This document shows, in pieces, positions 12,360 to 53,974 of a stretch of 62,694 nucleotides of DNA. How positions within the stretch are numbered: the stretch's first letter is position 1; the number at the start of each line of letters is the position of its first letter. Position numbers and translations under genes: made by a program. The DNA is taken from contig JAIPDI010000033.1 of NCBI GenBank assembly GCA_021737785.1, positions 1 to 62,694 on the forward strand. Reading direction: 5' to 3'. Below the pieces are notes generated by a model. That model saw nothing but the letters and a program-made list of their open reading frames with translations, did not search any database and was not told the DNA's origin. This DNA comes from Deltaproteobacteria bacterium (lineage in GTDB: Bacteria > Desulfobacterota > DSM-4660 > Desulfatiglandales > Desulfatiglandaceae).

Positions 12360-13538
12360 TTAAAACCTCATTCCCTTCACCCGGCCCAGGGCCTCTGACA
12401 GTCTCTCCTTCTTCTGGGTCAGTGCGATCCGGAAATATCCCTCTCCGGGGTCACCAAACCCATTGCCCGGGGTCACCACAACCCCTGCCTCTTCCAATAA
12501 CCGGGTCGCCAACTGCGTAGAGGTGTACCCCTGCGGCACGTTTACCCACAGATAGAAGGTCGCCCTGGGAGACATCACCTCGAATCCCGCATCTCTTAGG
12601 CCCTGAACCATAATGTCCCGACGCCCCTGGTAAACCTGTGTCATCTCCCTCACACAGGTATCACCCCCCTTTAGGGCCGCTATCCCGGCCCGTTGAACCG
12701 CCTGAAACACACCCGAATCGATGTTGCTCTTGATTGCCCCCAGACCCTCCATCCCTTCCCGGTTCCCCACAGCAAACCCGATGCGCCATCCGGTCATATT
12801 ATAGGTCTTGGATAGGGAATGAAACTCCATGCCCACCTCTTTGGCCCCCTCTGCCTGTAAGAAACTGGGGGGTCGGTGATCATCAAAGGCCATTTCCGTG
12901 TAGGCCGCGTCATGGCAGACCATGATATTGTACTTCCGCGCAAAGGCCACCACCGCTTCAAAGAATGACATGTCCGCGACAGCGGAAGTCGGGTTATTGG
13001 GATAGTTGATGAACAGGATCCGAGCACGCTCTGCAATAGATTCTGGGATGGCCGTTAAATCGGGGAGATAGTTATTCTTGTGCAACAGCGGCATAAAAAA
13101 AGAGTCTCCCCCGGCAAAGAGCGTGGCAATATGGTACACCGGATAGGCGGGGGTGGGAACCAGGGCGACATCGCCGGGATCGATAAAGGCCAAGGGAAGA
13201 TGGGCCAACCCCTCTTTGCTTCCGATAGCCGAGACCACCTCTTTTTCCGGATCCAGATTCACGCCAAACCGCTCCCGGTACCACCCGGCGACCGCATCCT
13301 TGAAATCGTTCATGCCCGAATAGGACGGATACCTGTGGTTTGCCGGGTCATCTATGGCATGCTTCATCTCCTCAATAATGTGCTGAGGGGTAGGCAGATC
13401 AGGATCTCCCACCCCCAGATCGATAATGTCAACCCCTTTAGCCTTGACCTCGGCCTTTTTCCGGTCAATCTCCTTAAACAGATAGGGTGGGAGTTGTTTT
13501 AATCGTTGGGCCTTCTCAAACAGTTTCATATTATTCAT
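12360..13538 (-). CDS. dapL: LL-diaminopimelate aminotransferase (class I/II aminotransferase)
   Basis: A 392-residue PLP-dependent aminotransferase. The block DLGVGDPDLPTPQHII, the Asp of INYPNNPTSA, the Tyr/His loop and the PLP Lys in FHSLSKTYNMTGWR are typical of the DapL2/LL-DAP aminotransferase branch that converts tetrahydrodipicolinate directly to LL-diaminopimelate, by-passing the succinylase steps. dapB, which makes the substrate, lies just upstream on the same strand (13893), which supports this assignment over alanine or aspartate aminotransferase. It heads the folK-containing run. Confidence 0.85.
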   Translation of the reverse strand: MNNMKLFEKAQRLKQLPPYLFKEIDRKKAEVKAKGVDIIDLGVGDPDLPTPQHIIEEMKHAIDDPANHRYPSYSGMNDFKDAVAGWYRERFGVNLDPEKEVVSAIGSKEGLAHLPLAFIDPGDVALVPTPAYPVYHIATLFAGGDSFFMPLLHKNNYLPDLTAIPESIAERARILFINYPNNPTSAVADMSFFEAVVAFARKYNIMVCHDAAYTEMAFDDHRPPSFLQAEGAKEVGMEFHSLSKTYNMTGWRIGFAVGNREGMEGLGAIKSNIDSGVFQAVQRAGIAALKGGDTCVREMTQVYQGRRDIMVQGLRDAGFEVMSPRATFYLWVNVPQGYTSTQLATRLLEEAGVVVTPGNGFGDPGEGYFRIALTQKKERLSEALGRVKGMRF

Positions 13539-13892: not shown

Positions 13893-14696
13893 TCACTTCA
13901 ACCCTAACACATCCTGCATGTCATAAAGGCCCCGGGGTTGCCGGACCACCCATAGGGCCGCCCTTACCGCCCCCCTGGCGAAATTATCCCGGTTATGGGC
14001 CCTGTGGGTCAGTTCCAGTCTCTCACCGATCCCGCCGAACATCACTGTGTGCTCTCCGGTAATATCTCCGGCCCGCCAGGTCTGAATGCCGATTTCCTCA
14101 TCGGTCCGTTCACCGATCATCCCTTTACGTTCGTACACCCCCACCTTTTCCAGGTCCCTGTGGGAGGCATCGGCCAATATCCGGGCCAGCCGCATGGCCG
14201 TTCCGCTCGGCGCATCCTTTTTCAGCCGGTGATGCACCTCCAGAATCTCCATGTCATAATCTGATCCCAGGATCCGGGCCATCTCCCCGGCAATCTTGAA
14301 CATGACATTGACGCCCACGCTCATGTTGGGGGCCAGGACACATCGGAGTGTTCCGGCAAGGGCCTCCACCTCCTTCAACAGGTCTCCGGTGATACCGGTG
14401 GTCCCGACCACCATGGCCAGATCATTATCGGCGGCAACCCTCATATTATCGAGGGTCGCCTGGGGCGCGGTGAAATCGATCAGCACATCCGCCTTCCCGA
14501 TCGATTTCTGCATCGCATCTCCTATGGTGATGCCCAGTTTTCCAGCACCGGCCACCAGGCCCGCATCCTGGCCGACACACGGGTGCCCGGCATGTTCAAA
14601 TGCGCCGCTCAGGGTTGTTTCCGGATTCTGGTGAATCATATGAATGATTCGTTGCCCCATCCGGCCGGCAGCACCGGCAACCGTAACTTGGATCAT
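13893..14696 (-). CDS. dapB: 4-hydroxy-tetrahydrodipicolinate reductase
   Basis: A 267-residue DapB of normal length. It reduces HTPA to tetrahydrodipicolinate with NAD(P)H in lysine and diaminopimelate synthesis. Visible features are the N-terminal Rossmann motif VTVAGAAGRMGQR, the VLIDFTAP and VVGTTGI segments, the catalytic His/Lys block EVHHRLKKDAPSGTA and the C-terminal FARGAVRAALWV. The next enzyme in this route, the aminotransferase DapL, is encoded downstream on the same strand. Confidence 0.96.
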   Translation of the reverse strand: MIQVTVAGAAGRMGQRIIHMIHQNPETTLSGAFEHAGHPCVGQDAGLVAGAGKLGITIGDAMQKSIGKADVLIDFTAPQATLDNMRVAADNDLAMVVGTTGITGDLLKEVEALAGTLRCVLAPNMSVGVNVMFKIAGEMARILGSDYDMEILEVHHRLKKDAPSGTAMRLARILADASHRDLEKVGVYERKGMIGERTDEEIGIQTWRAGDITGEHTVMFGGIGERLELTHRAHNRDNFARGAVRAALWVVRQPRGLYDMQDVLGLK

Positions 14697-37694: not shown

Positions 37695-38477
37695 TTACAG
37701 GTCGAGCATGCCGGTCGGGGCAAGCAAGGACGGCAGGATGCCCCTGATCGCCAGGTGCCATGCCCGTCCCACACCTTCCAGGGCAGCATCAAAATCCCGT
37801 TTGGTTCGAACCAGCTCGGACATAAGGACCCGCTTCAGCAACAGCATTTTCAAAAGATGGAAAGGGCGTACACGCGCGTTCTGATCGATGCAGTCGAAGA
37901 GATCGTGGGGAATCGAACAAGCGGCCGGATCACTCACGGCCCGAAAGGCAAAAAAGGGGAGACCCGCGTTCCCCGCGGCCGCGGCTACGGCCGCACTCTC
38001 CATGTCCACGGCCAGTGCCCGGGTCTTTGTGAAGAGCGCCTGTTTCTCCCCTGTCGAAAGGACAGGCCTTTGAACGGTAATGATGGGGCCGCGATATACA
38101 GGGAATCTTCTGTCCGTGAGCGCCCCATACGCCTTGTCCACACCTGCAAAACTCACTTCCCGCGTCTCATTTATCGGATTGCCATCGTCTTGAATCACCG
38201 AGTCGGCAAGAACCAGGTCTCCGGGCGCAAGGTCCGGACAGAGCCCCCCTGAGACCCCTGAAACGGCCAATCCCGACACCCCTTCGCCGATCAGCCACTT
38301 CGAGGCCGTTGAGGCGTTTTTCGACCCCATGCCTGAGCGCACAACAATGAGATGGGTGCTGTCGGTGAGGCGGGAACGCCGGAAGAGACACCCTCCGGCC
38401 TGCTGCCACCGGCCGTGCCCGATCAGGGCCCTTGCCTCGGCATTCAACGCAACGACCAGGCCTACGGCCGGATTCAT
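37695..38477 (-). CDS. hpnG: Hopanoid-associated phosphorylase/nucleosidase (HpnG)
   Basis: A 260-residue protein of the purine/uridine phosphorylase and MTA/SAH nucleosidase fold. The N terminus is [14 protein letters not shown], with [10 protein letters not shown] and [20 protein letters not shown] blocks, and [13 protein letters not shown] contains the Glu that binds ribose. It is coupled to the squalene-hopene cyclase gene by an ATGA overlap (38474-38477). HpnG removes adenine from adenosylhopane in the hopanoid side-chain pathway, and this context is the main ground for the name. Confidence 0.87.
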
Positions 38478-40567
38478 GATCTGATTTTTAATGCAGGGAA
38501 GGACCAACCGGCCGGCGATGCAAGGCTTACCTCTTCCTGCCGGGTGGATCTCCCGGCACGAAGTCTCCGGTATTCGCCCAGGGCCCAGAGAGGGAAAAAC
38601 TGAGCATAGCCGTGATAGCGCAGATAAAAGACATTGGGGAAACCGGTACCGGTGAAGATCTGTTCGTCCCACCTCCCATCACTGTCCTGATGGGTGAGAA
38701 GGTAATGGATCCCGCGCTGAACCGCCGAACTCTCCACTTCGCCAACGGCCATGAGCCCCAGCAAGGCCCACGCGGTCTGGGATGGCGTACTCTCCCCTTT
38801 GCCGGCCAGGGAGGGATCTTTGTAGCTGTAGCAGGTTTCTCCCCACCCGTTGTCGGGATTCTGGCACGATTTCAACCAGTCCACCGCCTTTTGAATATAC
38901 GGTTGGGATACATCCTCGCCCAGACGGCCGAGGCCTTTGAGCACAGACCAGGTGCCGTAGATGTAGTTGACGCCCCACCGGCCGAACCAGCCCCCGAATG
39001 TCTCCTGTTCTCTGCGGAGAAACTCGAGCCCCCTGGCAACCGGCGGGAAATCACGACCATATCCGAGCATGGCCAACATCTCGATGCAGCGCCCTGTCAG
39101 ATCGGATGTGCTCGGATCCAGGAGCGCCCCATGATCGGCAAAGGGGATGTTGTTCAGGTACAGGTAGTTGTTGTCGATATCAAAGGCCCCCCATCCCCCG
39201 TCAGAACTCTGCATGCCGATCACCCAGTTGACCGCCTTTCTGATGTTTTCCCGATGGGCACCCTGATTCAAGGCCCCTGCCCGAAGCAGCGCCATAAGGA
39301 CCATCGGCGTGTCGTCGACATCCGGGTAAAGGGTGTTTTCAAACTGAAAGGCCCAGCCTGCCGGTTCCAGATCAGGGGCCCGATAGCTCCAGTCCCCGGG
39401 GACCCGTATAAGGTTCTCAAAGAGCCAGTCTATGGCCTTTTGGACCGCCTCATCTTCAGGGGCCGTGCCGGCCTCGAGCATCGCCGATAGACTCAGGCAC
39501 GTATCCCATACGGGAGAGACGCACGGCTGGCAACAGGCCTCCTCTCCGTGATCCACCAGAAGATCGTCGATGGCCTTCAGCCCCCGGACAACATCGGGGT
39601 GATGATCCGGATACCCCAGCACCCTGAGGGCCATCACCGCATTGGCCATGGCCGGAAAGATGGCGCCGATGCCCCCCACGCCCTGCATCCGCTCCACGGT
39701 CCAGCGTTCGGCAAGCCGGATGGCCCTTTCCCGTGAGGGCCTGGCGATCAGGGGATCGGCCATTTTGAGGATGCGGTCCAGAAAGATAAACAGGTTTTTG
39801 ATCAGATGGCGGGGGATCAGGTGATCCAGGTGACGGAGGTCCTGGGGCGATTCCACGAACAACTCGGATACGCCTTCCTCCGGCCGCAGCTCACAGACCG
39901 GGTGCTTGGCATTGAGGATCAGAAGAGGGACGATCACGGTCCGGGACCAATACGAGACTTTCCGAAGATGAAAAAAGAACCACTTCGGCAGGAGCATGAT
40001 CTCCACCGGCATGGCAGGGGTCGTCCGCCAGAGGACCTGACCGAACAGGGCCAGGGTGATCCGGGTGAAGACGTTTACCCTGGCGGCGCCCCCCAGGCCC
40101 AGAATAAACTCCCGCGCCCTGACCATATGGGGGGCGTCCGGCGAGTCTCCCAACTGTTTCAAGGCAAAATAGGCCTTGACCGAGGCGCTGATATCGCCCG
40201 CGCCCCCATAGTAGAGGGGCCAGCCGCCGTCTTCGAGCTGTCTGTGGCGCAGATACCGGCCGATCTTTGCTCTGAGTTCAGGGGTGGTCTTGCGGCCCAG
40301 AAATCGCTGAAGCAGGATGTATTCCGACGGGATAGTCGTGTCTGCCTCCACGTCGAAAACCCAGTATCCTCTGGCGTTCTGGATAGACAGAAACCGTTCC
40401 CTTGCCCTCTCGATGACCTCATCCAGTCGTTTGACTGCGAACAAAGAGGTTGTGGGCGCCGCCGCTTTTGCAGCGGCCTCCGGGACAGGGGCAGATTCGT
40501 GGGTGGGACGCGGAGCTCTTTTTGAGGTGGTAAAGGCCTTGAGCGCTGTACGAATACTCTGTTTCAT
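38474..40567 (-). CDS. shc: Squalene-hopene cyclase
   Basis: A 697-residue class II triterpene cyclase, slightly longer than usual because of an N-terminal Ala/Pro-rich segment (about 40 residues). The protonating DxDD motif is DVDD in TLYPDVDDTPMVLM, about residue 415. Several QW repeats are visible (QLEDGGWPLYYGGAGD, QSSDGGWGAFDID, QNPDNGWGETCYSY, QDSDGRWDEQIF). It cyclises squalene to hopene or diplopterol at the inner membrane. The following hpnG gene makes a two-gene hopanoid unit; other hpn genes are not in this window. Confidence 0.97.
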   Translation of the reverse strand: MKQSIRTALKAFTTSKRAPRPTHESAPVPEAAAKAAAPTTSLFAVKRLDEVIERARERFLSIQNARGYWVFDVEADTTIPSEYILLQRFLGRKTTPELRAKIGRYLRHRQLEDGGWPLYYGGAGDISASVKAYFALKQLGDSPDAPHMVRAREFILGLGGAARVNVFTRITLALFGQVLWRTTPAMPVEIMLLPKWFFFHLRKVSYWSRTVIVPLLILNAKHPVCELRPEEGVSELFVESPQDLRHLDHLIPRHLIKNLFIFLDRILKMADPLIARPSRERAIRLAERWTVERMQGVGGIGAIFPAMANAVMALRVLGYPDHHPDVVRGLKAIDDLLVDHGEEACCQPCVSPVWDTCLSLSAMLEAGTAPEDEAVQKAIDWLFENLIRVPGDWSYRAPDLEPAGWAFQFENTLYPDVDDTPMVLMALLRAGALNQGAHRENIRKAVNWVIGMQSSDGGWGAFDIDNNYLYLNNIPFADHGALLDPSTSDLTGRCIEMLAMLGYGRDFPPVARGLEFLRREQETFGGWFGRWGVNYIYGTWSVLKGLGRLGEDVSQPYIQKAVDWLKSCQNPDNGWGETCYSYKDPSLAGKGESTPSQTAWALLGLMAVGEVESSAVQRGIHYLLTHQDSDGRWDEQIFTGTGFPNVFYLRYHGYAQFFPLWALGEYRRLRAGRSTRQEEVSLASPAGWSFPALKIRS

Positions 40568-40909: not shown

Positions 40910-43900
40910 TTAGCAGGGCGGACGCGTTTTGTTCTGTCCCCTGTTCAGCAACCCAACCGCGCTCACCGTTATGGTTACGGTATTGAATGTTTCTTCCACC
41001 TTCCCTTTGAGGATATAAGGACGTGCCGCGTTCAACATATGGCAATATCTGTGGTACACCTTGGGGAAAAATACGGCCTCATAAGGGGCGGTAAGGTCCT
41101 CAAAGGTCATAAATTTCATCGGTTCCCCCTTTTGCGTATGCACCGTCTTTCCGGTGACAGGCCATCCGATGAGGGTGACCTCCCTGCCGATCCGGGAAGA
41201 AAGGTCCCGGGCCCGGACATAATCGAGGCTGTTCAGGATATCCCCATAAAGGGCAAGGGGGTGGACCGAAAGGACAAAGCCGAAGACCTCGGCCTCATGC
41301 TGCAGCATGACCTGCCTGGGATATGGCGCCCGGGATCCGGCGGCGCCGGGCCCCGGGGCAGGGGCCTGCAAATGGCGAAACAGACTGTCCGAGTGTTTTC
41401 CCGTTTCCCGGGCAAAAAACCGGAGCGCCTCCCACATGAGTCCGGGTCTGGAGGTATCCCGGGCAACGCCGTCAAAACAGCCCCCCTTGATGAGGGCCTT
41501 GACGTCCTGAAGATGGAGATGGGGTGTGGTTCGATAGAGAAAACTGTCAAGGGAGACAAAGGGTCCCCGCTTCATCCGTTCATGGACAACGGCTTCCCTG
41601 GTCTCCTGAGAAAGGCCCTTCAACTGCATCAGACCGACCCGGATCTGCCGGTCTCTGCCGATATAGGGAATCTCGCTGCGGTTGATATCCGGGGGGAGGA
41701 CCTGTATCCCCATACGCCTCGCCTCGGATATATAGCTGAGGGTGGTGTAGTAGCCCCCCTGGTTGGAGATGACCGCTGCCATGAATTCGGCCGGGTAATG
41801 GGCCCTGAGCCAGGCCGACTTATAGGCCACCAGGGTGTAGCTGGCGGAATGGGGTTTGCAGAAGCTGTACCCGTCAAAGCCGATCATCATCTGCCAGACC
41901 GCCTCAATGACCCCCCGGTCCACCCCCCGGTCAGAGGCCCCCTGGACAAACCGGGCATAAAAATCCCTCAGCCGTTTTTCCTTATGCTTCTTGCTGACCG
42001 TCTTTCTGAGGGTATCGGCCTCGCCGGGGTCGAATCCGGCCAGGTGAACCGCAGCCTGGCTCAGTTGTTCCTGAAACACCATCACCCCCAGGGTCTCTTT
42101 CAGGACCGGCCCCAGCAGGGGGTGGGGCGGGGACCAGGGTTCCCCGTGAAGTCTGGATATCCAGGTGTGGATGCTCTGATTGGCGCCGGGTCGGATAATG
42201 GAGGTGACGATCACATTGAGAAGAAAGTGGTCCAGGGCCATATACCGGTCAAAGGTAAACCCGGATCTGAGCTTGCTCAGGACCTGCCGGGTGGCAGGGC
42301 TTTCAAAATAAAAAACCCCGAACGTATCCCCTTCATAAAAGATCCGTATGGTCTTTGGGTCGCTGAGGGGGTTCAGGGAGGCATAATCGATGCGCTGGCC
42401 GTAATTTCGCTCCACCAGGCCGAGGGCGTCCCGAATGACCGACAGACTCCGGTTTCCCAGGATGTCGATCTTGACGAGGCCTGCCTCCTCCACCGAATCC
42501 TTTTCCCACTGGAGGACCTGCCGGCCGTTATGGGCAATCTCCACCGGACAGTGCCTCCGGATCTCATCCGGAACGATCACCACCCCGCCGCAGTGCGTGG
42601 CAAGGTGATTGAAATGTCCCTGCAACTGAAAGGCCGCGGTCAGGATCTCGTCCCACGGTTTGCCAAAGGCCACCCCTCTCATCTTGGGATGACGGGCCAG
42701 TTCCTCCCATGCCCCGCTCAGATGCCATCCAAACCCGACCTGACGGGTCACCCGACCGATCTCCGCATCGGTCAGGCCAAAGACCCTGGCCACCTCCCGG
42801 ATAGCTGATCGGGGGCCGAGGGTATTGTGATTCGCCACCATGGCCGTGCAGCGGTTGCCGTATCGGGCAAAGACCGTGTCAAACACCTGATCCCGCTCAT
42901 CCCAGGGTACATCCACATCGATATCCGGGGGGTCCATCCGGCCGGGATTCAGGAACCGCTCGAAGAAAAGATGGTGTTGGATCGGGTCCACATGGGTGAT
43001 CCCCAATGCATAGGAGACAATGGAGGCCGCGGCGCTCCCCCGGCCGCAGGACCGACCCGCCATTTTTGTGATGTTCTCAACCACCAGAAAATACGAGGCG
43101 AATTCCTTTTCCCGGATGATTCGCATCTCATGCGCCAGTCGCGCCGTCACCTCAGGGGTCATGCTGCCGTATCGCCGCCGGCACCCGTCCATGGCAGCCC
43201 CATAGAGTCGATGATACGCCTCGTCCGGGTCTAGGCCGTCAAAGGCCGGAAAGATGATCCGGTCCATATCCCAGTCCACAAGGGCCGACTCCGCCGCCTT
43301 CACGGTGTTGGCGATGGCCGCAGGGGCGTGGGGATACTGGTCGATCATGTCCTGGGGGGCGTTTAAAAAGCTGTGTTCCCGGCAGGTGTCTTCAGTCGAA
43401 AGTCTGGAGAGCTTGGTGTTCAGGAAGACGGACCTCAGGATCCGGTGGAGCCGGAACTGGTCTTTTCTGAGCATATAGACCCGGTTGGTAGCCAGGGGAG
43501 GGATGCCGGTCTGGCGGGAAAAGGCATGGCAGCGGGCCATCTGCCAGCCAGGGGACATCTCCACAAAGAGATCCCGGAGGGCATCCCGTTTAAGGGCCTT
43601 GAGCAGGCTGAAATCGTCGGAAAAGACAATGAGCCCCCGACGTCGTTCCCTGAGGGACCGAACCAGGTCAAAATCGTCATGGCAGTGAAGGGCCGAGAGG
43701 AGGTGGCACAGGTTGGCATACCCCTCCCGGTCCTTGACGATCGCCACCGCCCGTCGACCATCGTGCAGGAGTTCGCTCCCCACGATCGGCGCAATGCCCG
43801 CCTCTTTGGCCATCCTCACAAAAAAGACCGTTCCGTAGATGCCGTTGGTATCGGTCAGGGCAAGCCGTTTTATGCCCAGGCCCTGGGCCGCTCCACAGAG

Positions 43901-43969
43901 TTCCTCGATGGTGGCGAGCCCCCAGCCCCTGGAATAATCGGAATGAACATTCAGATGGATGAAGGACAT
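40910..43969 (-). CDS. dnaE2: Error-prone DNA polymerase III alpha subunit (DnaE2/ImuC)
   Basis: About 1018 residues from the ATG at 43969; a GTG six codons earlier lies in the repeat. It is shorter than replicative DnaE (about 1160) and ends with an OB-fold and no beta-binding tail of the long form. The N-terminal PHP domain (FIHLNVHSDYSRGWGLATIEEL) is followed by the polymerase palm with PPDIDVDVPWDERDQV, carrying the catalytic Asp pair, then thumb, fingers and the helix-hairpin-helix KCLSQETREAVVHER-type region. The DnaE2 type performs mutagenic lesion bypass with ImuB. It follows imuB and lexA on the same strand. Confidence 0.93.
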   Translation of the reverse strand: MSFIHLNVHSDYSRGWGLATIEELCGAAQGLGIKRLALTDTNGIYGTVFFVRMAKEAGIAPIVGSELLHDGRRAVAIVKDREGYANLCHLLSALHCHDDFDLVRSLRERRRGLIVFSDDFSLLKALKRDALRDLFVEMSPGWQMARCHAFSRQTGIPPLATNRVYMLRKDQFRLHRILRSVFLNTKLSRLSTEDTCREHSFLNAPQDMIDQYPHAPAAIANTVKAAESALVDWDMDRIIFPAFDGLDPDEAYHRLYGAAMDGCRRRYGSMTPEVTARLAHEMRIIREKEFASYFLVVENITKMAGRSCGRGSAAASIVSYALGITHVDPIQHHLFFERFLNPGRMDPPDIDVDVPWDERDQVFDTVFARYGNRCTAMVANHNTLGPRSAIREVARVFGLTDAEIGRVTRQVGFGWHLSGAWEELARHPKMRGVAFGKPWDEILTAAFQLQGHFNHLATHCGGVVIVPDEIRRHCPVEIAHNGRQVLQWEKDSVEEAGLVKIDILGNRSLSVIRDALGLVERNYGQRIDYASLNPLSDPKTIRIFYEGDTFGVFYFESPATRQVLSKLRSGFTFDRYMALDHFLLNVIVTSIIRPGANQSIHTWISRLHGEPWSPPHPLLGPVLKETLGVMVFQEQLSQAAVHLAGFDPGEADTLRKTVSKKHKEKRLRDFYARFVQGASDRGVDRGVIEAVWQMMIGFDGYSFCKPHSASYTLVAYKSAWLRAHYPAEFMAAVISNQGGYYTTLSYISEARRMGIQVLPPDINRSEIPYIGRDRQIRVGLMQLKGLSQETREAVVHERMKRGPFVSLDSFLYRTTPHLHLQDVKALIKGGCFDGVARDTSRPGLMWEALRFFARETGKHSDSLFRHLQAPAPGPGAAGSRAPYPRQVMLQHEAEVFGFVLSVHPLALYGDILNSLDYVRARDLSSRIGREVTLIGWPVTGKTVHTQKGEPMKFMTFEDLTAPYEAVFFPKVYHRYCHMLNAARPYILKGKVEETFNTVTITVSAVGLLNRGQNKTRPPC

Positions 43970-43973
43970 GATG

Positions 43974-44141
43974 TAGGCGTTAGGCACAAGGCATTAGGCG
44001 TTAGGCGCAGGGCGTTAGGCGTGAGGAAGAAGCCAAAAGCTCAAAGCATCCACCAAAGAAGTGGCCGGACGCGTCTCTGATCGTTGTTGGCAGTGTGGCC
44101 GTCGGGGCTGCCCTTGCGCCTTGTGCCTCACGCCTTGCTTT
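43974..44141. repeat. GGCGTTAGGC repeats, inverted pair at the imuB-dnaE2 junction
   Basis: Positions 43974-44050 contain repeated GGCGTTAGGC and GGCACAAGGC units ending in GCTCAAAGC; 44107-44141 carries TTGCGCCTTGTGCCTCACGCC, the same phrase inverted. A transcript could fold these together. The last codons of imuB and the upstream GTG of dnaE2 lie in them, so the repeats may have eroded both gene ends. Confidence 0.55.
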
Positions 44142-45294
44142 TTCCATACATAATACCATTTTCTCCATACCGGTCCCGAATGCGGTCCAGGGTCCGGGTG
44201 AGCACGGATCGTCTTTCTTCATCCGGAGACGGGGCGTCAAAGAGGGTCAGTTGCGGGTCGGGCCGGGAAAATTCCCAGAACCATGCCTTGATGAATCCCA
44301 CCCGGACCCGCCGGGTGCATTGCTTAAAAAATAATGCTTCCAACGGGGCGTAGAGATCATGATCCTGGAAACCGGGCCGGGGCAGTTTCAACCGCCCTCC
44401 TGTTTCCACATGGTCGGCATACCGGATGCGCAATCCGGCCTTCCGGGGGATCAGCCCCTGTTTTCGCATCCGCCGGCCGCATGTCTCCACCAGCCGATAG
44501 AGATATCCCAAGAGCCTTGGATCATCGACCTCTTCCTGGGGGAGGGTGATCACTTCGGCGATCACCGGCACCCTGGACAAGGGATACACCGGCGTGGGAT
44601 CGATCCCCAAGGCCCTCTCATGGATCATATAGGCCTGCCGGCCAAAGATGAGTGCCAGACGGTTCAGATCCAGGGCCGCCAACTGTCGAATGCGGACGAT
44701 GTTCAGCTCCTCTGCGAGGAGTTTCCGGCGTACAGGGCCGATGCCGGGCATCAGTCCGACCTTCAGGGGGGCCATGAAACCGGCCTCCCGGCCATGATCC
44801 ACGTTCAGCACCCCCTCGGAGGGAACGGTCCGGGACGCGATGCTGGAGACCATTTTATTGCCGGCAACCCCGGCAGTCCCCATGAGACCCAAGCGCTCCC
44901 GGATCTCGTTCCTGAGACGACATGCCGCGTCTCTGGCCTTTCCCCAGAGCCGCTCTGTACCGGTAAGATCCAGATACATGTGCCCCGGCCCGCAGGGTTC
45001 ATATCGGGGCGTGTATCGGGCCGCGACCCGGGCAAGCTCCCGGCAGGCCTGTTCCGCGGCCCGCGGATCCGGGGAAAGGATTGTCAGGCCCGGACAGCAT
45101 GTCCGGGCCTTTTGAAGCGACATCCCCTTGAACACCCCCTCGCTACGGGCCTCCCGGGAAACAGACAGGACCAGGGAGCGCCCTGACCGGCCCGCGGCCA
45201 TGGCCACGGGCCGGTATCTCAACTCCGGCCGGGAGATCCGGGCCACGGCAATGGGGAGGGCGGGTACATGAAAATGGATGATGTGGCGGGGCAT
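44128..45294 (-). CDS. imuB: ImuB-like inactive Y-family polymerase
   Basis: A 388-residue Y-family protein. The catalytic acidic residues of DinB are missing: the usual IHVDMDAFFASVE reads IIHFHVPALPIAVAR, and the Ser-Asp-Glu motif before YLDLTG reads CGPGHMYLDLTG. The rest of the fold is recognisable (VAGNKMVSSIASRTVP, GIGPVRRKLLAEELNI, VITLPQEEVDDPRLLGYLYRLVE). This is the pattern of ImuB, a scaffold that links DnaE2 to the clamp and other SOS proteins. ImuA is not seen. The C terminus is shorter than usual, ending in the repeat segment. Confidence 0.88.
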   Translation of the reverse strand: MPRHIIHFHVPALPIAVARISRPELRYRPVAMAAGRSGRSLVLSVSREARSEGVFKGMSLQKARTCCPGLTILSPDPRAAEQACRELARVAARYTPRYEPCGPGHMYLDLTGTERLWGKARDAACRLRNEIRERLGLMGTAGVAGNKMVSSIASRTVPSEGVLNVDHGREAGFMAPLKVGLMPGIGPVRRKLLAEELNIVRIRQLAALDLNRLALIFGRQAYMIHERALGIDPTPVYPLSRVPVIAEVITLPQEEVDDPRLLGYLYRLVETCGRRMRKQGLIPRKAGLRIRYADHVETGGRLKLPRPGFQDHDLYAPLEALFFKQCTRRVRVGFIKAWFWEFSRPDPQLTLFDAPSPDEERRSVLTRTLDRIRDRYGENGIMYGKSKA

Positions 45295-45297
45295 CGG

Positions 45298-45377
45298 TTT
45301 GTTGGGTTTATTGGGTTGTTGCGTTTGTTGGGTTGTTGGGTTGTTGGTGTGAGTTCTTCAATCTTCAATCTTCAATC
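45298..45377. repeat. TTGTTGGGT and TTCAATC tandem repeats
   Basis: 45298-45349 is a degenerate TTGTTGGGT tandem array and 45355-45377 is TTCAATC repeated three times. Together they fill the 90-base space between lexA and imuB. The first array is similar in reverse to the sequence near 33310. Confidence 0.6.
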
Positions 45378-45384
45378 GACAATC

Positions 45385-45987
45385 CTACAGATACCTCATC
45401 ACCCCCACCACCTTTCCCTCGATGCAAAGATCCCCCCTGTTGACCCGTATGGATTCCATCCCTGCATGGGCAGGCCGGAGTTCGATGTGACCCTTTCCCC
45501 GGTAATACCTTTTGACCGTTGCTTCGTTATTGATGAGCGCCACCACAATATCTCCGTTCTGTGCCACGGGTTGTCGTCTCACCACCACGAAATCCCCGTC
45601 CAGGATCCCATCCTCTTCCATGGAATCCCCTGCCACCTGGAGCACAAAACACTCTCCGCTGTCGGCCATGGAGGGCGGGACCTCCACCACGCTTCGGTCT
45701 TCGATGGCCTCGATCGGCCGCCCCGCCGCCACCCGTCCCAACAGGGGGAATTCGAACCGCCTGTTCTCCACCGGGCTGATGATCTCCATGGCCCGTTTCC
45801 GGTTTTTTTCCTTCGGCAGCCGGATATAGCCCTTCCGCTCCAGGATCTTGAGATAGGTGGTGACCGTGTTATATGAGGCAAAACCGAAATGGGCGCAGAT
45901 CTCGTCAAAGGAAGGGGCCGTTCCCCACGATTCCACATACCTGGAGATATAATCCAGAAAGTCCTTTTGTTTATCCGTCAATTTCAT
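45385..45987 (-). CDS. lexA: LexA repressor
   Basis: A 200-residue LexA of normal length. The N-terminal winged helix contains FDEICAHFGFASYNTVTTYLKILERKGYI. The cleavage site is Ala-Gly in LLGRVAAGRPIEA; the catalytic Ser is in QVAGDSMEEDGI and the Lys in NEATVKRYY. RecA-stimulated self-cleavage relieves repression of the SOS genes. It is the first gene of the lexA-imuB-dnaE2 set, so it probably represses itself and the mutasome from the promoter at 46076. Confidence 0.95.
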   Translation of the reverse strand: MKLTDKQKDFLDYISRYVESWGTAPSFDEICAHFGFASYNTVTTYLKILERKGYIRLPKEKNRKRAMEIISPVENRRFEFPLLGRVAAGRPIEAIEDRSVVEVPPSMADSGECFVLQVAGDSMEEDGILDGDFVVVRRQPVAQNGDIVVALINNEATVKRYYRGKGHIELRPAHAGMESIRVNRGDLCIEGKVVGVMRYL

Positions 45988-46210: not shown

Positions 46211-47170
46211 CTATCGACCGTCGACTGAATCCAAAATGTCGCCCCTGGAAAGGGCGCTGACAACCGCTTCTCTTATCCGTTCGTATGTTGCATCGGGCCT
46301 TTTCTCATCTGCTATAGAACCGCTTATGCTGTCAACAGTCGATAAATAGCCGTCCGCATTGCGGTCAACAAGAATAAAAAACGGCTTCTGAACATCGTCT
46401 TTATACCCCATGACCTTCATGGACCTGCCGTAGTCTTTTCCTTCCTTGATGATTATGATCATTCGGCCCCAAGAGACAGGGACCTCGACCTGGTAGGTGC
46501 AGATACCGTCCGGGCAGATCGGCACCCCGTTCTCGTCCATATCCTTTATATGGGTAAACGGTCTGATGATGCCGCAAAGATTTCTGCGACTGTTGAATAT
46601 GATGACGGGGTCTCCGGGCCTGCAGAGATTGAATAGCTTTTCCATGGCCGGATTGTCCAATGCGATGCAGCCCTCGGTCCAGTCGGTCTCTTTGTTCTTG
46701 CCGAAATATCTGAAAACCCCTCCGCCATGGATCCCGATGCCGCAGCCCAGGCCGGTACCGCAGGGTGTATGGCCTGACTTCCGAATGTCTTGATATATTT
46801 TTTTATATTCCTTGAGAGATATCACACCTTGGGCCAAACCCCTGGCCGCGTCGGCAAGATTGGGGTAAGAGATGCCCAGGAACCGGTGGAATTCGCTTTT
46901 GTATTTCTTATAAGTGATGACATAAAGGCCTTCAGGGGTCGCGCCGTCAAATGACTTGTATTTGTCTGAATCAGGGTCTATGCCGAATGCGGCCGGAAAT
47001 TCGGCGGCCTGTTCCCCATCCGCAACCACGACCAATTTCTTCCTGGCCTTGTCTATAATTATGATTCGTCCGGTGTTGAGTGGCGGGGTTTCCGATCGGG
47101 CATTTACGGTTGAAAAAATCAGAACCAGAAATATTATGAATTGATTTTTCAACGCAAAATTTGATAACAT
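46211..47170 (-). CDS. L,D-transpeptidase (YkuD) 1
   Basis: 319 residues from the ATG at 47170; an upstream in-frame start at 47221 adds 17 residues. A signal peptide (residues 1-26, LKNQFIIFLVLIFSTVNARSE) is followed by the YkuD domain: IIIIDKARKKLVVVADGEQAAEF, ATPEGLYVITYKK, then GIGIHGGGVFRYFG and the active-site block DWTEGCIALDN with the catalytic Cys. The C-terminal 90 residues (from VPICPDGICTYQV) are an unrecognised extension. It is divergent from the Lpp-like lipoprotein (39-base space). Confidence 0.9.
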   Translation of the reverse strand: MLSNFALKNQFIIFLVLIFSTVNARSETPPLNTGRIIIIDKARKKLVVVADGEQAAEFPAAFGIDPDSDKYKSFDGATPEGLYVITYKKYKSEFHRFLGISYPNLADAARGLAQGVISLKEYKKIYQDIRKSGHTPCGTGLGCGIGIHGGGVFRYFGKNKETDWTEGCIALDNPAMEKLFNLCRPGDPVIIFNSRRNLCGIIRPFTHIKDMDENGVPICPDGICTYQVEVPVSWGRMIIIIKEGKDYGRSMKVMGYKDDVQKPFFILVDRNADGYLSTVDSISGSIADEKRPDATYERIREAVVSALSRGDILDSVDGR

Positions 47171-47209
47171 AAGCGTGTCGAACCATATACCCGGAAAGGA
47201 GGATAGAAG

Positions 47210-47578
47210 ATGTTGATGCAAAGAATGAACAGGATGTTTTCCAAAACGATTGCCTTTGGCGGTCTCTTATGCCTCTTGGGCTTTGGGGGCTGTGCCACCC
47301 TCACCAAAGAAGACAGGGCCTTTTTGGAGGGGACCAAGCAATCGGCCGAAGAGGCCAGGGCTGCGGCCGCCAAAGCCGAGGCCGCCGCGGCCAGGGCCGA
47401 GGCCGTCAACAAAAAACTTGAAGACATGGTCGCACGCCTCGAAAAGGCCGCTTTCAGTGCTGAGCAGACTGCAAACAGGGCCGACATGGCCGCCACCAAG
47501 GCGATGGATGCCGCAGAGCGTGCAGAGGCCGTAGCCAAAAAGACAGAACGCATCTTCGAAAAATCCCTTAAGAAGTAG
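47210..47578 (+). CDS. Alanine-rich Lpp-like lipoprotein
   Basis: A 122-residue lipoprotein. AAAGGAGGATAGAAG lies immediately before the ATG. The signal peptide ends in lipobox LLGFGGCATL. The mature part is an alanine-rich amphipathic helix with heptad-like repeats (AAAAKAEAAAARAEAVNKKL, then AEQTANRADMAATKAMDAA) and the last two residues are Lys-Lys. This size and plan resembles Lpp/OprI, which uses a C-terminal Lys for covalent attachment to peptidoglycan by L,D-transpeptidases. Two such enzymes flank the gene. Covalent attachment is an inference. Confidence 0.85.
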   Translation: MLMQRMNRMFSKTIAFGGLLCLLGFGGCATLTKEDRAFLEGTKQSAEEARAAAAKAEAAAARAEAVNKKLEDMVARLEKAAFSAEQTANRADMAATKAMDAAERAEAVAKKTERIFEKSLKK

Positions 47579-47587
47579 CCGCCCTGG

Positions 47588-48514
47588 TTAAGGTTTTTTG
47601 GGGCGCGCAACAGCCGCAGGCACCCCGGTTTTGTCCTTCAACGCCCTGTCCAGGGTCTCGACATCGACGTCAAGGGGGCCTACGGCTGTTTCCCAGCGAG
47701 AGAGTTCGCCCATCGCCTTTGAACGCAGATCGTCGATCCGGTTATCAAAATCGTCAAATACCTGTATCCAGCACTTCCCACCTCCCCATCCCACATTGAT
47801 CGGTTCATAGACGACATGGACGATCGTCCCCACGGATATGAGCGGATAGAGTATGCTTACGTCTTCAGGGTACATGCGGATACAGCCGTGGCTTACTCTC
47901 CGCCCGATTCCCCATGGCTGATTTGTACCATGTATTGCATATTGCCTTTGGGAAAGACGAAAAACATAGTCGCCCAGCGGGTTCTCCGGCCCCGGCGGCA
48001 CCTCGGCCGGGAGATCCGGTTCCATTTCCTTGATTGACTCCGGCACCACCCAGGTTGGGTTAGCGGTCTTGCTTTGTACTGTATAGACACCCAATTCGGT
48101 GAGAAAGCCTTCTGTGCCGATGCCAATGGGGGCAGTGAGAAAGTATTGGTTGCCGCCGTCCGAAAAGAAGTAGTAAAGGCGCATCTCCGCCAGATTTACA
48201 ACGATACCCGAGCTTATACGCTCTCGAGGGAGTATAACGGCCGACGGGACAAGCACAAGACCCTCCTTGGGCGGCACCCAGGGATCAACCCCCGGGTTCG
48301 CAGCAATGATCTGATTGTATCCAAGGTCAAAGTCACGTGCGATATCCAGGAGCGTGTCCTTTTCATTCGCTTTTACCCAGCGCGCGGCGCCATATAAGGT
48401 CCTGTCAGGGGACAGTACGAAGGCTCTCAAGGCCCATGCGGAATGGGCACAGAACAATACCCAAATAATGGCTGCCGCTCCGAAAATAAAAGGCCTTGTT
48501 CGCCACATCACCAT
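47588..48514 (-). CDS. L,D-transpeptidase (YkuD) 2 with LysM-like N-terminal region
   Basis: About 308 residues. The start is uncertain: a TTG at 48520 lies 9 bases after AGGAGG, and an ATG at 48514 lies 15 bases after it; I use 48514. A signal peptide (RPFIFGAAAIIWVLFCAHSAWA) is followed by a LysM-like segment (DTLLDIARDFDLGYNQIIAANPG) and the YkuD domain with IHGTNQPWGIGRRVSHGCIRM, which has the His and Cys of the active site. This pattern belongs to the ErfK/YbiS/YcfS type that links lipoproteins to murein. It converges on the lipoprotein gene, 9 bases away. Confidence 0.92.
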   Translation of the reverse strand: MVMWRTRPFIFGAAAIIWVLFCAHSAWALRAFVLSPDRTLYGAARWVKANEKDTLLDIARDFDLGYNQIIAANPGVDPWVPPKEGLVLVPSAVILPRERISSGIVVNLAEMRLYYFFSDGGNQYFLTAPIGIGTEGFLTELGVYTVQSKTANPTWVVPESIKEMEPDLPAEVPPGPENPLGDYVFRLSQRQYAIHGTNQPWGIGRRVSHGCIRMYPEDVSILYPLISVGTIVHVVYEPINVGWGGGKCWIQVFDDFDNRIDDLRSKAMGELSRWETAVGPLDVDVETLDRALKDKTGVPAAVARPKKP

Positions 48515-48727: not shown

Positions 48728-49630
48728 TCAGGGATTGCCCGAACAGACCTTGCCCAGATGGGCCAATATGGGCTGGTGAAGGTTCACACCGAAGAAATTG
48801 CAGTACGGCGTGCATTTGGAGAGGAGCATGAAGGTGATCTTGTCTCTTACCGCCCCCTTTTCCTCTTCCAGGGCGTCGAAGTTGCCCCCGCCCTTGGAGA
48901 TGACCATGTCGGCCCGGTGGATCAATTCCGTCACCTCTTGAGAACATCTGCAAAGGACCGTCCCCGGGCACGGCCCGTCAATTCCATTTTCCACGATGGT
49001 TGAGATCTCGTGGATTCCCACCGACCGCGCCTCATCCATGGTGGCATCATTGAGCGCGGGCACGCTCCTCACGATAAAGACGATATCCATATCCCGCAGC
49101 CCCCTGATGGTTTCCATGAGGAGTCTGTCAAAGACAATCTCACCGGCATTGTCTCCCAGATAGACCAGAAAACGACACTTGTCCAGCCGCCTTCGGAATT
49201 TCTGATACTCTATATCGGAGACAGGCTCTCTCAGCCTCTCGGCAATAGAGTTTTCAATGTCGGTGGGCCGGTTTCCCATCATAAGATCGATGGTATTTCC
49301 CAGAATGGCCAGTTTTACGGCCGTATGAAGCGGATCAGAGGCCGCTTTCAGCATGCTTTTCAGAAACGGGACGATCCCCATGATCCGCCTGTTCTGAAGG
49401 GTCTTGACCTCTTGAAAGGGATCCCTTCTCCCGGTCGCATCCATCATCACATGCATGACCCTCTCAAGGACTTCAGGGCTGGTGATATCCCACGACCGGC
49501 CCCTCAACCACGGGATGTCCAAGATATTGCCATACAGTTCTTTTTCTGCGTCACCCTGGAGTCCCAGTTCCCTCATGGCGGTGATGGACATGGTCAAGAT
49601 ACAGGGAATGCATTCCGGTTGAATCCGCAT
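48728..49630 (-). CDS. DUF89/ARMT1-like phosphatase family protein
   Basis: A 300-residue protein. The N-terminal PECIPCILTM carries two Cys; the middle GDNAGEIVFDRLL contains the metal-binding Asp/Asn of DUF89; ISKGGGNFDAL is the conserved distal block. DUF89 includes damage-control phosphatases that dephosphorylate reactive sugar or cofactor phosphates. The Cys-rich N terminus is typical of the archaeal and delta-proteobacterial branch and could bind metal. It lies on the same strand as the beta-helix and lptD genes, 21 bases after the former. Confidence 0.88.
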   Translation of the reverse strand: MRIQPECIPCILTMSITAMRELGLQGDAEKELYGNILDIPWLRGRSWDITSPEVLERVMHVMMDATGRRDPFQEVKTLQNRRIMGIVPFLKSMLKAASDPLHTAVKLAILGNTIDLMMGNRPTDIENSIAERLREPVSDIEYQKFRRRLDKCRFLVYLGDNAGEIVFDRLLMETIRGLRDMDIVFIVRSVPALNDATMDEARSVGIHEISTIVENGIDGPCPGTVLCRCSQEVTELIHRADMVISKGGGNFDALEEEKGAVRDKITFMLLSKCTPYCNFFGVNLHQPILAHLGKVCSGNP

Positions 49631-51712: not shown

Positions 51713-53974
51713 CTACCAACGCCCTGTGTCTCCCAGCCCGACCAGGCGTATGAGAACCATAACATTGGTGTCGCCGTCCTCTTTTGCAGCACCCAATTTC
51801 AGGCCCCAGCACTGACTCTGGTATCCTATCCACCCGGCACTCGAGATGGTCTGCCCCGCCTCCATATCCCTTTGAAAGGAGCCTCCCACGGAAAACCCAT
51901 GGAAAAGGTTCACGTCGGCACGGAAGTTGATGTTTGTCTGGCCGTCTTGAGCATCTTTAAAATACTGATAGTTCACCTCGTAGGTATCCGTTCTCCCCCC
52001 GGCCCGGCTGAAAGAGAGACTCCCTGAGAGGGTGGAACGGGAAAACGTATTGTCGTAGTGATCCCACCCTGCGCTCCCCCGCAGGTCCAGAGACGAGAAA
52101 GGTCTCACGATCAGTTCTGCCAAAAGGGGGGTGAAAGGTCTACCTTCATCGCCCTGGCGCGCGGTATCAATATCATAGCCCTGGTACAGTTTAAAGGTAC
52201 CCCATTGACTGTAAGTGACTCTTCCCTTCTTGTCTTTAAAACGGGCATCCAGGAAATTTTCGAGGGCAAAGGCGATACGGTTTCTGCTCTTATCCTCATC
52301 GTCCTCCTGGTGGATGGAATCAAACCACGGACTTTCATATCCGCCCCTGTCAATAGGAGAAAACCATGGGATATTATCTCCATTTGTTCGGTATCCCCTG
52401 TACAGGTAGGTGAGCACCGGAGAGATCTTGTGCCGCACTCTATCGGCATTGAACCATTGAAGATCGTAAACCCGCTCCACATTGGTGGCCAGCCTTGTGC
52501 TTGCCTCATAGACCGTCTGGTATTGGTTCTCCCTCTTCCCCTCATTGTCTTCGGCCCATAGGCCGTTATATGTATAACTGAAGGACGGCTCAAACTGGAC
52601 ATAGGGTCCGATCCACAACGGAAAGTTTACCTGGGGAGAAATAGAGATGCTGTGGCCCTTATTCGCCTCATCGCTCCATACGTAATCATAATTGGATTCA
52701 AGATTGAAAAATACGGGCAAGCTTCTGATCTGCTCGGGGAGGAGCATGAAATTGAGACCTCCCACAGGTTCCTGCATCATATTTTTGTCGGCAGGATCTT
52801 CCGATGGCTGATAATAACTCCCAATGCCCTGAAGGCTGTAGGATTCGCCGTCACGACTGAGCCTGAGAGCGGACCTCCGAGTGGGCGATCGCTTTTCCTG
52901 AAACGGACGATTGGATTTCTCATCCATATTCGTCCTGGAGGAAAACCCGAAAAGTTTCTCTTCAAATTCCCTCAGATAGTCCTGATCGCTCACATAATCC
53001 GCGTCGAGCCGCGCCGACACATCGAACGGGAGCGCCTGGTCAGCCCAGCCCCTCAGCCAGTACCGCGTGCTGTTGGTGCGGGCAAACGGGCTGATCTCCA
53101 AGGCATCCTTATCCGTCATGTTCTTGGTTTTTTCCATATCCGAAAGGATATCGAACTCCAAAACGCCCTCTGAATCCTCATCTTCAATATAACGGAATTC
53201 CACCCCCTGCATATATCCCCTGCTGCTCATGAAGCGGCCATAAAAGGTGGCATCGGTCTGGTCTGAAATCGCCCAATAAAAGGGGATCTCCAGTTCACCG
53301 CCGTTGAGGGTGGAGTAGCCCACACGGGGAGGGAGCAACCCGGACTGGCGTTTGGTTTTGGCGGGAAAAATCATGTAAGGGACATAAATAATCGGCAGGC
53401 CTTTCACACGGAATGCAGAATGCTTGACCGCACCGTAGCCCTCGATGGTTACCTTGACCTCGGAACCGGTGATGGTCCAGTCGGGATTGGCGCCGTCGCA
53501 GGTGGTCAGGCTGCATTCCTGGACCACATAGGTATCCTCCCCCACCTTCTCCATGTGACTCCCCCGGATGTAATAATGATTGGCCCTCAGGAAAAGTGAG
53601 GCGTCCACGATTTCTCCGGTCCGGGTATTGAGATTGAAAGTCCCTTCCCTACCCGTCACCACGTCCCCCTCTGTCTCCAACCGCAAGCCGCCGGAGACCC
53701 TGGCGATCCCCGTCTTCACATTGAACTCGGCATGCTCTGTAAAGAGGGTCTGCCCCGCCTTGGTAATCACCACATCCCCTTCCGCAAGGTAAGTGCCTTC
53801 CTTTTCATTATAGGTCAGGGAGTTGGCAGTGATATTCCAGGGAATCGCATCATCGTCCAGCAGCCCCCTTTTTGTTTGCAGGTTCTGTGCAAAGAGGTTG
53901 CCCGCACTCAAGAGCAGACACAGGACTACGATCGCGCATAAGGCAGCGGGTCTTAGAGGGTATCGGGGCCGAAT
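51713..53974 (-). CDS. lptD: LPS-assembly outer membrane protein LptD, apparently ATT start
   Basis: About 753 residues if the ATT at 53974 is the start. The N-terminal OstA/LptA-like jellyroll (ITANSLTYNEKEGTYLAEGDVVITKAG) is followed by the LptD barrel (VPYMIFPAKTKRQSGLLPPRVGYS and many antiparallel strands up to the C-terminal RLVGLGDTGRW). LptD inserts LPS in the outer leaflet with LptE. In the frame the only ATG-like starts are non-canonical; the ATT at 53974 lies 9 bases after AAGGAGG and begins a complete signal peptide (RPRYPLRPAALCAIVVLCLL.. ending SAGNLFA). Other possible starts (CTG 53923, TTG 53911) would remove that signal. Confidence 0.88.
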   Translation of the reverse strand: MRPRYPLRPAALCAIVVLCLLLSAGNLFAQNLQTKRGLLDDDAIPWNITANSLTYNEKEGTYLAEGDVVITKAGQTLFTEHAEFNVKTGIARVSGGLRLETEGDVVTGREGTFNLNTRTGEIVDASLFLRANHYYIRGSHMEKVGEDTYVVQECSLTTCDGANPDWTITGSEVKVTIEGYGAVKHSAFRVKGLPIIYVPYMIFPAKTKRQSGLLPPRVGYSTLNGGELEIPFYWAISDQTDATFYGRFMSSRGYMQGVEFRYIEDEDSEGVLEFDILSDMEKTKNMTDKDALEISPFARTNSTRYWLRGWADQALPFDVSARLDADYVSDQDYLREFEEKLFGFSSRTNMDEKSNRPFQEKRSPTRRSALRLSRDGESYSLQGIGSYYQPSEDPADKNMMQEPVGGLNFMLLPEQIRSLPVFFNLESNYDYVWSDEANKGHSISISPQVNFPLWIGPYVQFEPSFSYTYNGLWAEDNEGKRENQYQTVYEASTRLATNVERVYDLQWFNADRVRHKISPVLTYLYRGYRTNGDNIPWFSPIDRGGYESPWFDSIHQEDDEDKSRNRIAFALENFLDARFKDKKGRVTYSQWGTFKLYQGYDIDTARQGDEGRPFTPLLAELIVRPFSSLDLRGSAGWDHYDNTFSRSTLSGSLSFSRAGGRTDTYEVNYQYFKDAQDGQTNINFRADVNLFHGFSVGGSFQRDMEAGQTISSAGWIGYQSQCWGLKLGAAKEDGDTNVMVLIRLVGLGDTGRW

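Follow-up and report, generated by a model that had tools for sequence, protein, structure and literature searches.

A short gene for an alanine-rich lipoprotein lies between two YkuD genes in the 62,694-nt stretch of DNA analysed here (the window). The question is whether these three genes form a unit tying the outer membrane to murein, and whether both enzymes do the same work in it. An earlier note on this DNA described a 122-residue alanine-rich lipoprotein with a Lys-Lys end between a divergent and a convergent YkuD gene, and this arrangement is confirmed by the open reading frames and the YkuD matches (Table 1). The start of the divergent gene (LDT1) is separated from that of the lipoprotein gene by 39 nt, and the stop of the convergent gene (LDT2) is 9 nt from the lipoprotein stop. 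A promoter scan gave a single sigma-70-like match, barely above chance, at 47110–47137.

Table 1. Features of the lipoprotein locus in the window
Feature	Position	Strand	Basis
LDT1, 319 aa, DpaA/Csd6/Pgp2-side YkuD enzyme, predicted hydrolase	46211–47170	-	ATG at 47170; YkuD E = 4e-20
EF-hand/dockerin-like loop DRNADGY, LDT1 C-terminal domain	46347–46366	-	sequence
LDT1 catalytic Cys codon (TEGCIA)	46667–46669	-	C169 invariant in 24-member LDT1 alignment
Shine-Dalgarno-like GGAAAGGAGG ahead of lipoprotein ATG	47193–47202	+	sequence
Lipoprotein gene, 122 aa, 95 mature residues; Lpp/OprI-like alanine zipper	47210–47578	+	ATG start; ORF and Shine-Dalgarno
Lipobox Cys codon (GFGG/C)	47291–47293	+	sequence
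Terminal Lys codon, predicted acyl acceptor for meso-DAP	47573–47575	+	conserved in homologues
LDT2, 308 aa, ErfK/YbiS/YcfS/YnhG-type L,D-transpeptidase	47588–48514	-	ATG at 48514; YkuD E = 1e-25

Genomic setting and conserved linkage

The genome contains a third YkuD gene and no further one. It encodes a 644-aa YcbB/LdtD-like protein, which can be considered a separate candidate maker of 3-3 cross-links. The genes dapL (12360–13538, minus strand) and dapB (13893–14696, minus strand) are confirmed by NCBIfam, and their presence supports a predicted meso-DAP wall. They had been placed beside the module, but they are about 32 kb away from it.

On the minus strand at 40910–45987 are lexA, a Y-family DNA polymerase gene (impB/mucB/samB), and a gene for a 1025-aa DnaE-like polymerase. 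This set corresponds to an SOS mutagenesis-type cassette and is kept across the family; among the lexA loci read, it stands next to the tether module in this genome only. Other envelope genes are close by (37695–40567 and 51713–53911, minus strand), for a squalene-hopene cyclase, an HpnG-like phosphorylase, and an LptD-like protein. An ARMT1-like damage-control phosphatase gene (48728–49630, minus strand) adjoins LDT2.

When GTDB representative genomes were scanned with LDT2, Desulfobacterota, Nitrospirota, and a few other groups contributed 39 loci. In 32 of the 39, a short alanine-rich lipoprotein gene is convergent and directly 3′ of LDT2 (this and the following linkage counts take in related genomes and are not counts of independent events). 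Among 394 Desulfobacterota genomes, 21 of the best 23 LDT2 matches (E ≤ 1e-85, the window's own counted; the next is at 2e-74) have a convergent lipoprotein gene within 200 nt. In the remaining two genomes, G440 and G425, the lipoprotein gene is found elsewhere, beside LDT1. There, the lipoprotein gene and LDT1 stay paired (G440:C2, G425:C24/C26), with LDT2 34 kb off in G440 or on another contig in G425. The best 11 LDT1 matches in the same 394 genomes (E ≤ 1e-52, the window's own counted) all adjoin a divergent lipoprotein gene, while none of the next 11 (E ≥ 1e-40) does. The co-occurrence of the trio, which was proposed as a check on the module, is borne out by these counts. Some weaker LDT2-like genes (in G092, G142, G206, G353, and others) have a lipoprotein gene downstream on the same strand, not convergent.

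LDT2-like matches are also seen in 64 of 197 Nitrospirota genomes. At the 30 best loci, 28 have a convergent lipoprotein gene, and every one of these lipoproteins ends in Lys. The 30 best NF040598 loci of 187 Gammaproteobacterial genomes have a YkuD neighbour in 29 cases: it is of R-type at 22 loci and of A-type (LDT1-like) at 13, with both types at 6 and neither at 1. Since other families and phyla have it as well, in dozens of their genomes, the arrangement is far beyond chance.

The lipoprotein and its predicted rod

The lipobox of the window lipoprotein reads GFGG/CAT. The residue at +2 is Ala, and thus there is no Asp+2 retention signal. The lipobox Cys is invariant across 28 aligned lipoproteins, and so is the terminal Lys (K117) in the lipoprotein alignment. 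The C-terminus of the window protein is IFEKSLKK. In the Desulfobacterota set, all convergent Lpp-like lipoproteins finish with Lys, preceded by K, R, T, M, or L; across homologues, V and Y occur at this position as well. Lys-Lys as the conserved feature, which the earlier note suggested checking, is ruled out: the last Lys alone is kept, almost invariantly. It is present in 29 of the 32 convergent lipoproteins at the loci from the GTDB-representative scan, and the three exceptions (L046, L048, and L049) are from Nitrospirota. A tally of terminal residues that demanded a K/R end was excluded as evidence for the conserved Lys; the counts used here made no such demand. The three exceptions belong to one Nitrospirota group, with a K/E-rich tail after the SLEK position that ends in Glu (TE or AE). 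The tails of L046 and L048 are also His-rich.

The window lipoprotein scores 23.7 bits against NF040598, below the cut-off of 43, and 22.6 bits against PF11839, just below the cut-off of 23.1. NF040598 is matched by 26 of the 28 homologous lipoproteins (best E 2.9e-15), and when homologues are scanned singly, the relative L028 clears the cut-off with 51.1 bits. An F-x5-K pattern at the C-terminus is common to the window lipoprotein and the Gammaproteobacterial set. The profile search of PDB with the lipoprotein was uninformative, with designed coiled coils and E. coli Lpp at E = 0.15 as its matches. In its function the window lipoprotein probably resembles Lpp/OprI, and homology to them is probable, without formal membership by the curated cut-offs.

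AlphaFold predicts one single helix, residues 28–116, for the 117-aa form of the lipoprotein. Ala and hydrophobic residues recur with a 3.5-residue period. Mature lengths are 64–80 residues in the Gammaproteobacterial set, 66–95 in the Desulfobacterota set, and 77–157 in the Nitrospirota set. Among the Nitrospirota lengths, 33 of 38 are multiples of 7, and the Desulfobacterota pairs 81/95 and 80/94 also differ by heptad steps. Such stepped lengths and the period of 3.5 residues are as predicted for a coiled-coil rod whose length can be adjusted. By arithmetic, 95 residues at 0.15 nm each correspond to a rod of about 14 nm, and E. coli Lpp comes to about 8.6 nm. At L051:5800-6495 (minus strand), a long lipoprotein-like ORF adjoins LDT2, with many tandem EEAA-xRAE repeats and a Lys end. 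Its product is possibly a much longer rod.

Two YkuD enzymes of different type

Both enzymes had been called L,D-transpeptidases. This holds for LDT2, in which SHGCIR is the transpeptidase motif with its Arg retained, but not for LDT1, in which TEGCIA is of the DpaA/L,D-carboxypeptidase type, with Ala at Cys+2 and the transpeptidase Arg absent. Ala occupies this position in all 24 members of the LDT1 alignment, and the motif of the relatives is T-x-G-C-[IV]-A. The loss of Arg is the mark of DpaA and the L,D-carboxypeptidases, i.e., hydrolases (PMC8263019; PMC10653827). In the tree of YkuD domains, LDT2 groups with E. coli LdtA, LdtB, LdtC, and LdtE, and a 100/100 branch parts them from LDT1 and E. 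coli DpaA; the latter is a long branch whose exact place is unsure. Motif and tree rule out two transpeptidases of equal function. Judged from these, LDT1 is more likely a YkuD hydrolase that undoes or limits the attachment than a transpeptidase.

Such a hydrolase could release the lipoprotein, or it could be an L,D-carboxypeptidase like Csd6, Pgp2, and Bd1075, trimming the tetrapeptide D-Ala and limiting the acyl donors of LDT2 with no release of lipoprotein. The structure model of LDT1 has a pLDDT of 89.5. Foldseek alone ranked mainly transpeptidases for it, and VIA-align changed the order. Csd6 (Z 16.4) and Pgp2 (15.8) outscore DpaA (13.3) there, Bd1075 has 13.9, and generic YkuD enzymes have 12–14, while the alignment with DpaA is the longest (149 residues; about 131–133 for Csd6 and Pgp2). 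With the profile of 24 LDT1 relatives, the match to Bd1075 has 43 bits, that to DpaA 41, that to Csd6 29, and that to Pgp2 28. These best fold and profile matches, from Helicobacter (Csd6), Campylobacter (Pgp2), and Bdellovibrio (Bd1075), also have no transpeptidase Arg in the alignments, and none of them is known to be linked to a lipoprotein gene. Enzymes of the Csd6/Pgp2 type combine a YkuD fold, with its L1/L3 pocket, and an NTF2-like C-terminal domain. LDT1 has an extra C-terminal domain absent from E. coli DpaA, which likewise speaks for the carboxypeptidase.

The essential Lys83 of DpaA aligns with K71 of LDT1, which is invariant in the LDT1 alignment; it is equivalent to Lys107 of Csd6 and therefore does not separate an amidase from a carboxypeptidase. 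At the position of DpaA Tyr109 (0.7% activity when replaced by Ala), LDT1 has Phe and its relatives have Tyr or Phe. Tyr131 of DpaA (4% activity when replaced by Ala) is not kept and is Gly in LDT1, where the loop alignment is uncertain. Against NF040599, with a cut-off of 365 bits, LDT1 scores 12.9 bits, and 22 of the 24 relatives are weak matches (best E 5e-8). In the C-terminal domain, DRNADGYLSTVD fits the pattern DxNxDGxxxxxD of an EF-hand/dockerin-type calcium loop, with D, N, and G almost unchanged among the relatives.

Against the carboxypeptidase stands the linkage. The closest homologues of LDT1 are all linked to the lipoprotein gene with no exception, and a YkuD gene of the same signature adjoins Gammaproteobacterial Lpp/OprI genes. 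The strict linkage favours lipoprotein release over tetrapeptide trimming; trimming is a real possibility for LDT1, although probably not its function.

LDT2 matches the ErfK/YbiS/YcfS/YnhG family in NCBIfam (E about 1e-44). A Sec signal peptide can be read from its sequence, a LysM match is sub-threshold, and G-C-h-R is almost always present in its relatives. LDT2 is predicted to be the L,D-transpeptidase of the attaching side, and we infer its role toward the lipoprotein from the linkage and the conserved Lys. It could instead make 3-3 cross-links or exchange D-amino acids, with the lipoprotein merely as its non-covalent spacer or regulator. Enzymes of the LDT2 type do include 3-3 cross-linkers, which counts against a tether: E. 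coli LdtE, encoded convergent to lpp at a distance of 63 nt, is one (PMC8263019). In addition, LDT2 is outside the LdtA/LdtB/LdtC clade proper, not nested in it. This alternative is nevertheless unlikely, considering that the preceding residue drifts and the terminal Lys does not, as expected of an acceptor, and that the genome has the separate LdtD-like enzyme. A chance position of the lipoprotein gene between two cell-wall genes, with an unrelated alanine-rich coiled coil as its product, is very improbable: the family scores of the lipoprotein are sub-threshold, its sequence is of low complexity, and alanine-rich helices readily draw chance matches, but the linkage across three phyla largely refutes this, together with the common F-x5-K end and the invariant Cys and Lys.

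A probable attach/detach cassette, its history and its range

We consider it quite likely that the locus is a compact attach/detach cassette for a tether of the Braun-lipoprotein type, similar to OprI, LdtPae2, and LdtPae3 of Pseudomonas. After export and lipidation at the Cys, which has Ala at +2, the lipoprotein would be sorted to the outer membrane and build a long, oligomeric alanine-zipper coiled-coil rod there. LDT2 would take a tetrapeptide stem as the acyl donor and form a bond between the meso-DAP carboxyl at the L-centre and the amine in the side chain of the terminal Lys; the outer membrane would thereby be stapled to the murein. LDT1 would most likely cut the Lys–meso-DAP bond, in the manner of DpaA and, by inference, of LdtPae3.

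In P. aeruginosa, LdtPae2 anchors OprI, and LdtPae3 (SXGChA) is tentatively assigned to release (PMC10434034). Both sets consist of a Lys-ending alanine zipper, a transpeptidase of the LdtB/E lineage, and an SXGChA YkuD enzyme, and both genomes have three YkuD genes. The set here, with predicted activities, differs in its longer rod, the extra C-terminal domain of LDT1, and the phylum. The LDT1-like gene is on the strand of the lipoprotein gene in the Gammaproteobacterial loci read, and divergent in the window. E. coli Lpp shares the terminal Lys, the heptad coiled coil, and the convergent YkuD neighbour, but its mature rod has 58 residues instead of 95 and its C-terminus is KYRK instead of SLKK. 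The genes for attaching and detaching are dispersed in E. coli (LdtA, LdtB, LdtC, DpaA) and together here. Dickeya Lpp has a Lys-Lys end as its attachment site (PMC12729407). The YkuD-made link between outer-membrane beta-barrels and meso-DAP in Alphaproteobacteria and Coxiella, as cited in PMC8263019, is of the kind proposed here, but the barrels are joined by N-terminal residues and not by the C-terminal Lys of a lipoprotein.

Matches to LDT2 and the lipoprotein are absent from the sampled genomes of the same genus, although lexA (at 95% and 88% identity) and the Y-family polymerase gene, both neighbours of the module here, are present in them. The module is also absent from the flanks of 29 lexA loci of the family, where the flanks are short on some contigs. 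The nearest relatives of LDT2, 71–74% identical, come from other families. Since the same-genus genomes kept lexA without the cassette, the cassette was probably gained horizontally as a unit, although repeated loss in relatives may be the case instead. The tetranucleotide composition of window pieces has a correlation of 0.98 with that of 20 stretches from elsewhere in the genome. This match, with the lexA, Y-family polymerase, and DnaE neighbours kept in the same genus, rules out mis-binning of the contig.

The earlier note proposed a self-contained outer membrane–murein module of Desulfobacterota. The conserved linkage and the terminal Lys support the module itself, and neither of the two grounds named against it, homologues lacking a terminal Lys and an absence of conserved linkage, refuted it. 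It is not special to Desulfobacterota: the lipoprotein–enzyme pair occurs in Nitrospirota, and the pair or the trio in Gammaproteobacteria. A survey confines Lpp to a subset of Gammaproteobacteria, about 3% of genomes (PMC8263019), and the statement in PMC10260701 citing Witwinowski 2022 agrees. In the relevant statements of these two papers, DpaA-like enzymes of other diderms therefore act on other substrates. In the literature searched, no paper reporting a range of Lpp beyond Gammaproteobacteria was found. Geobacter GSU0182 is annotated as a murein lipoprotein (PMC7962754), and the NCBI Lpp/OprI model already picks up some Nitrospirota; a wider range is thus hinted at by annotation. The mechanism is already known. 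The phylum range, the conserved linkage of attaching and detaching genes, and the heptad-stepped lengths are new.

Desulfobacterota, at least, gain a candidate substrate encoded next to a DpaA-like enzyme. The spread of covalent outer-membrane tethering now becomes testable, as does the question of whether rod length sets the natural width of the periplasm. It can be speculated, with considerable doubt, that Lpp-type tethering is an old, horizontally mobile cassette of Desulfobacterota, Nitrospirota, and Gammaproteobacteria whose lipoprotein, attaching enzyme, and detaching enzyme can travel together, that the heptad-stepped rod sets the periplasm width, and that calcium at the loop of LDT1 may control release. 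If so, Lpp-type covalent tethering would not have been invented by Gammaproteobacteria.
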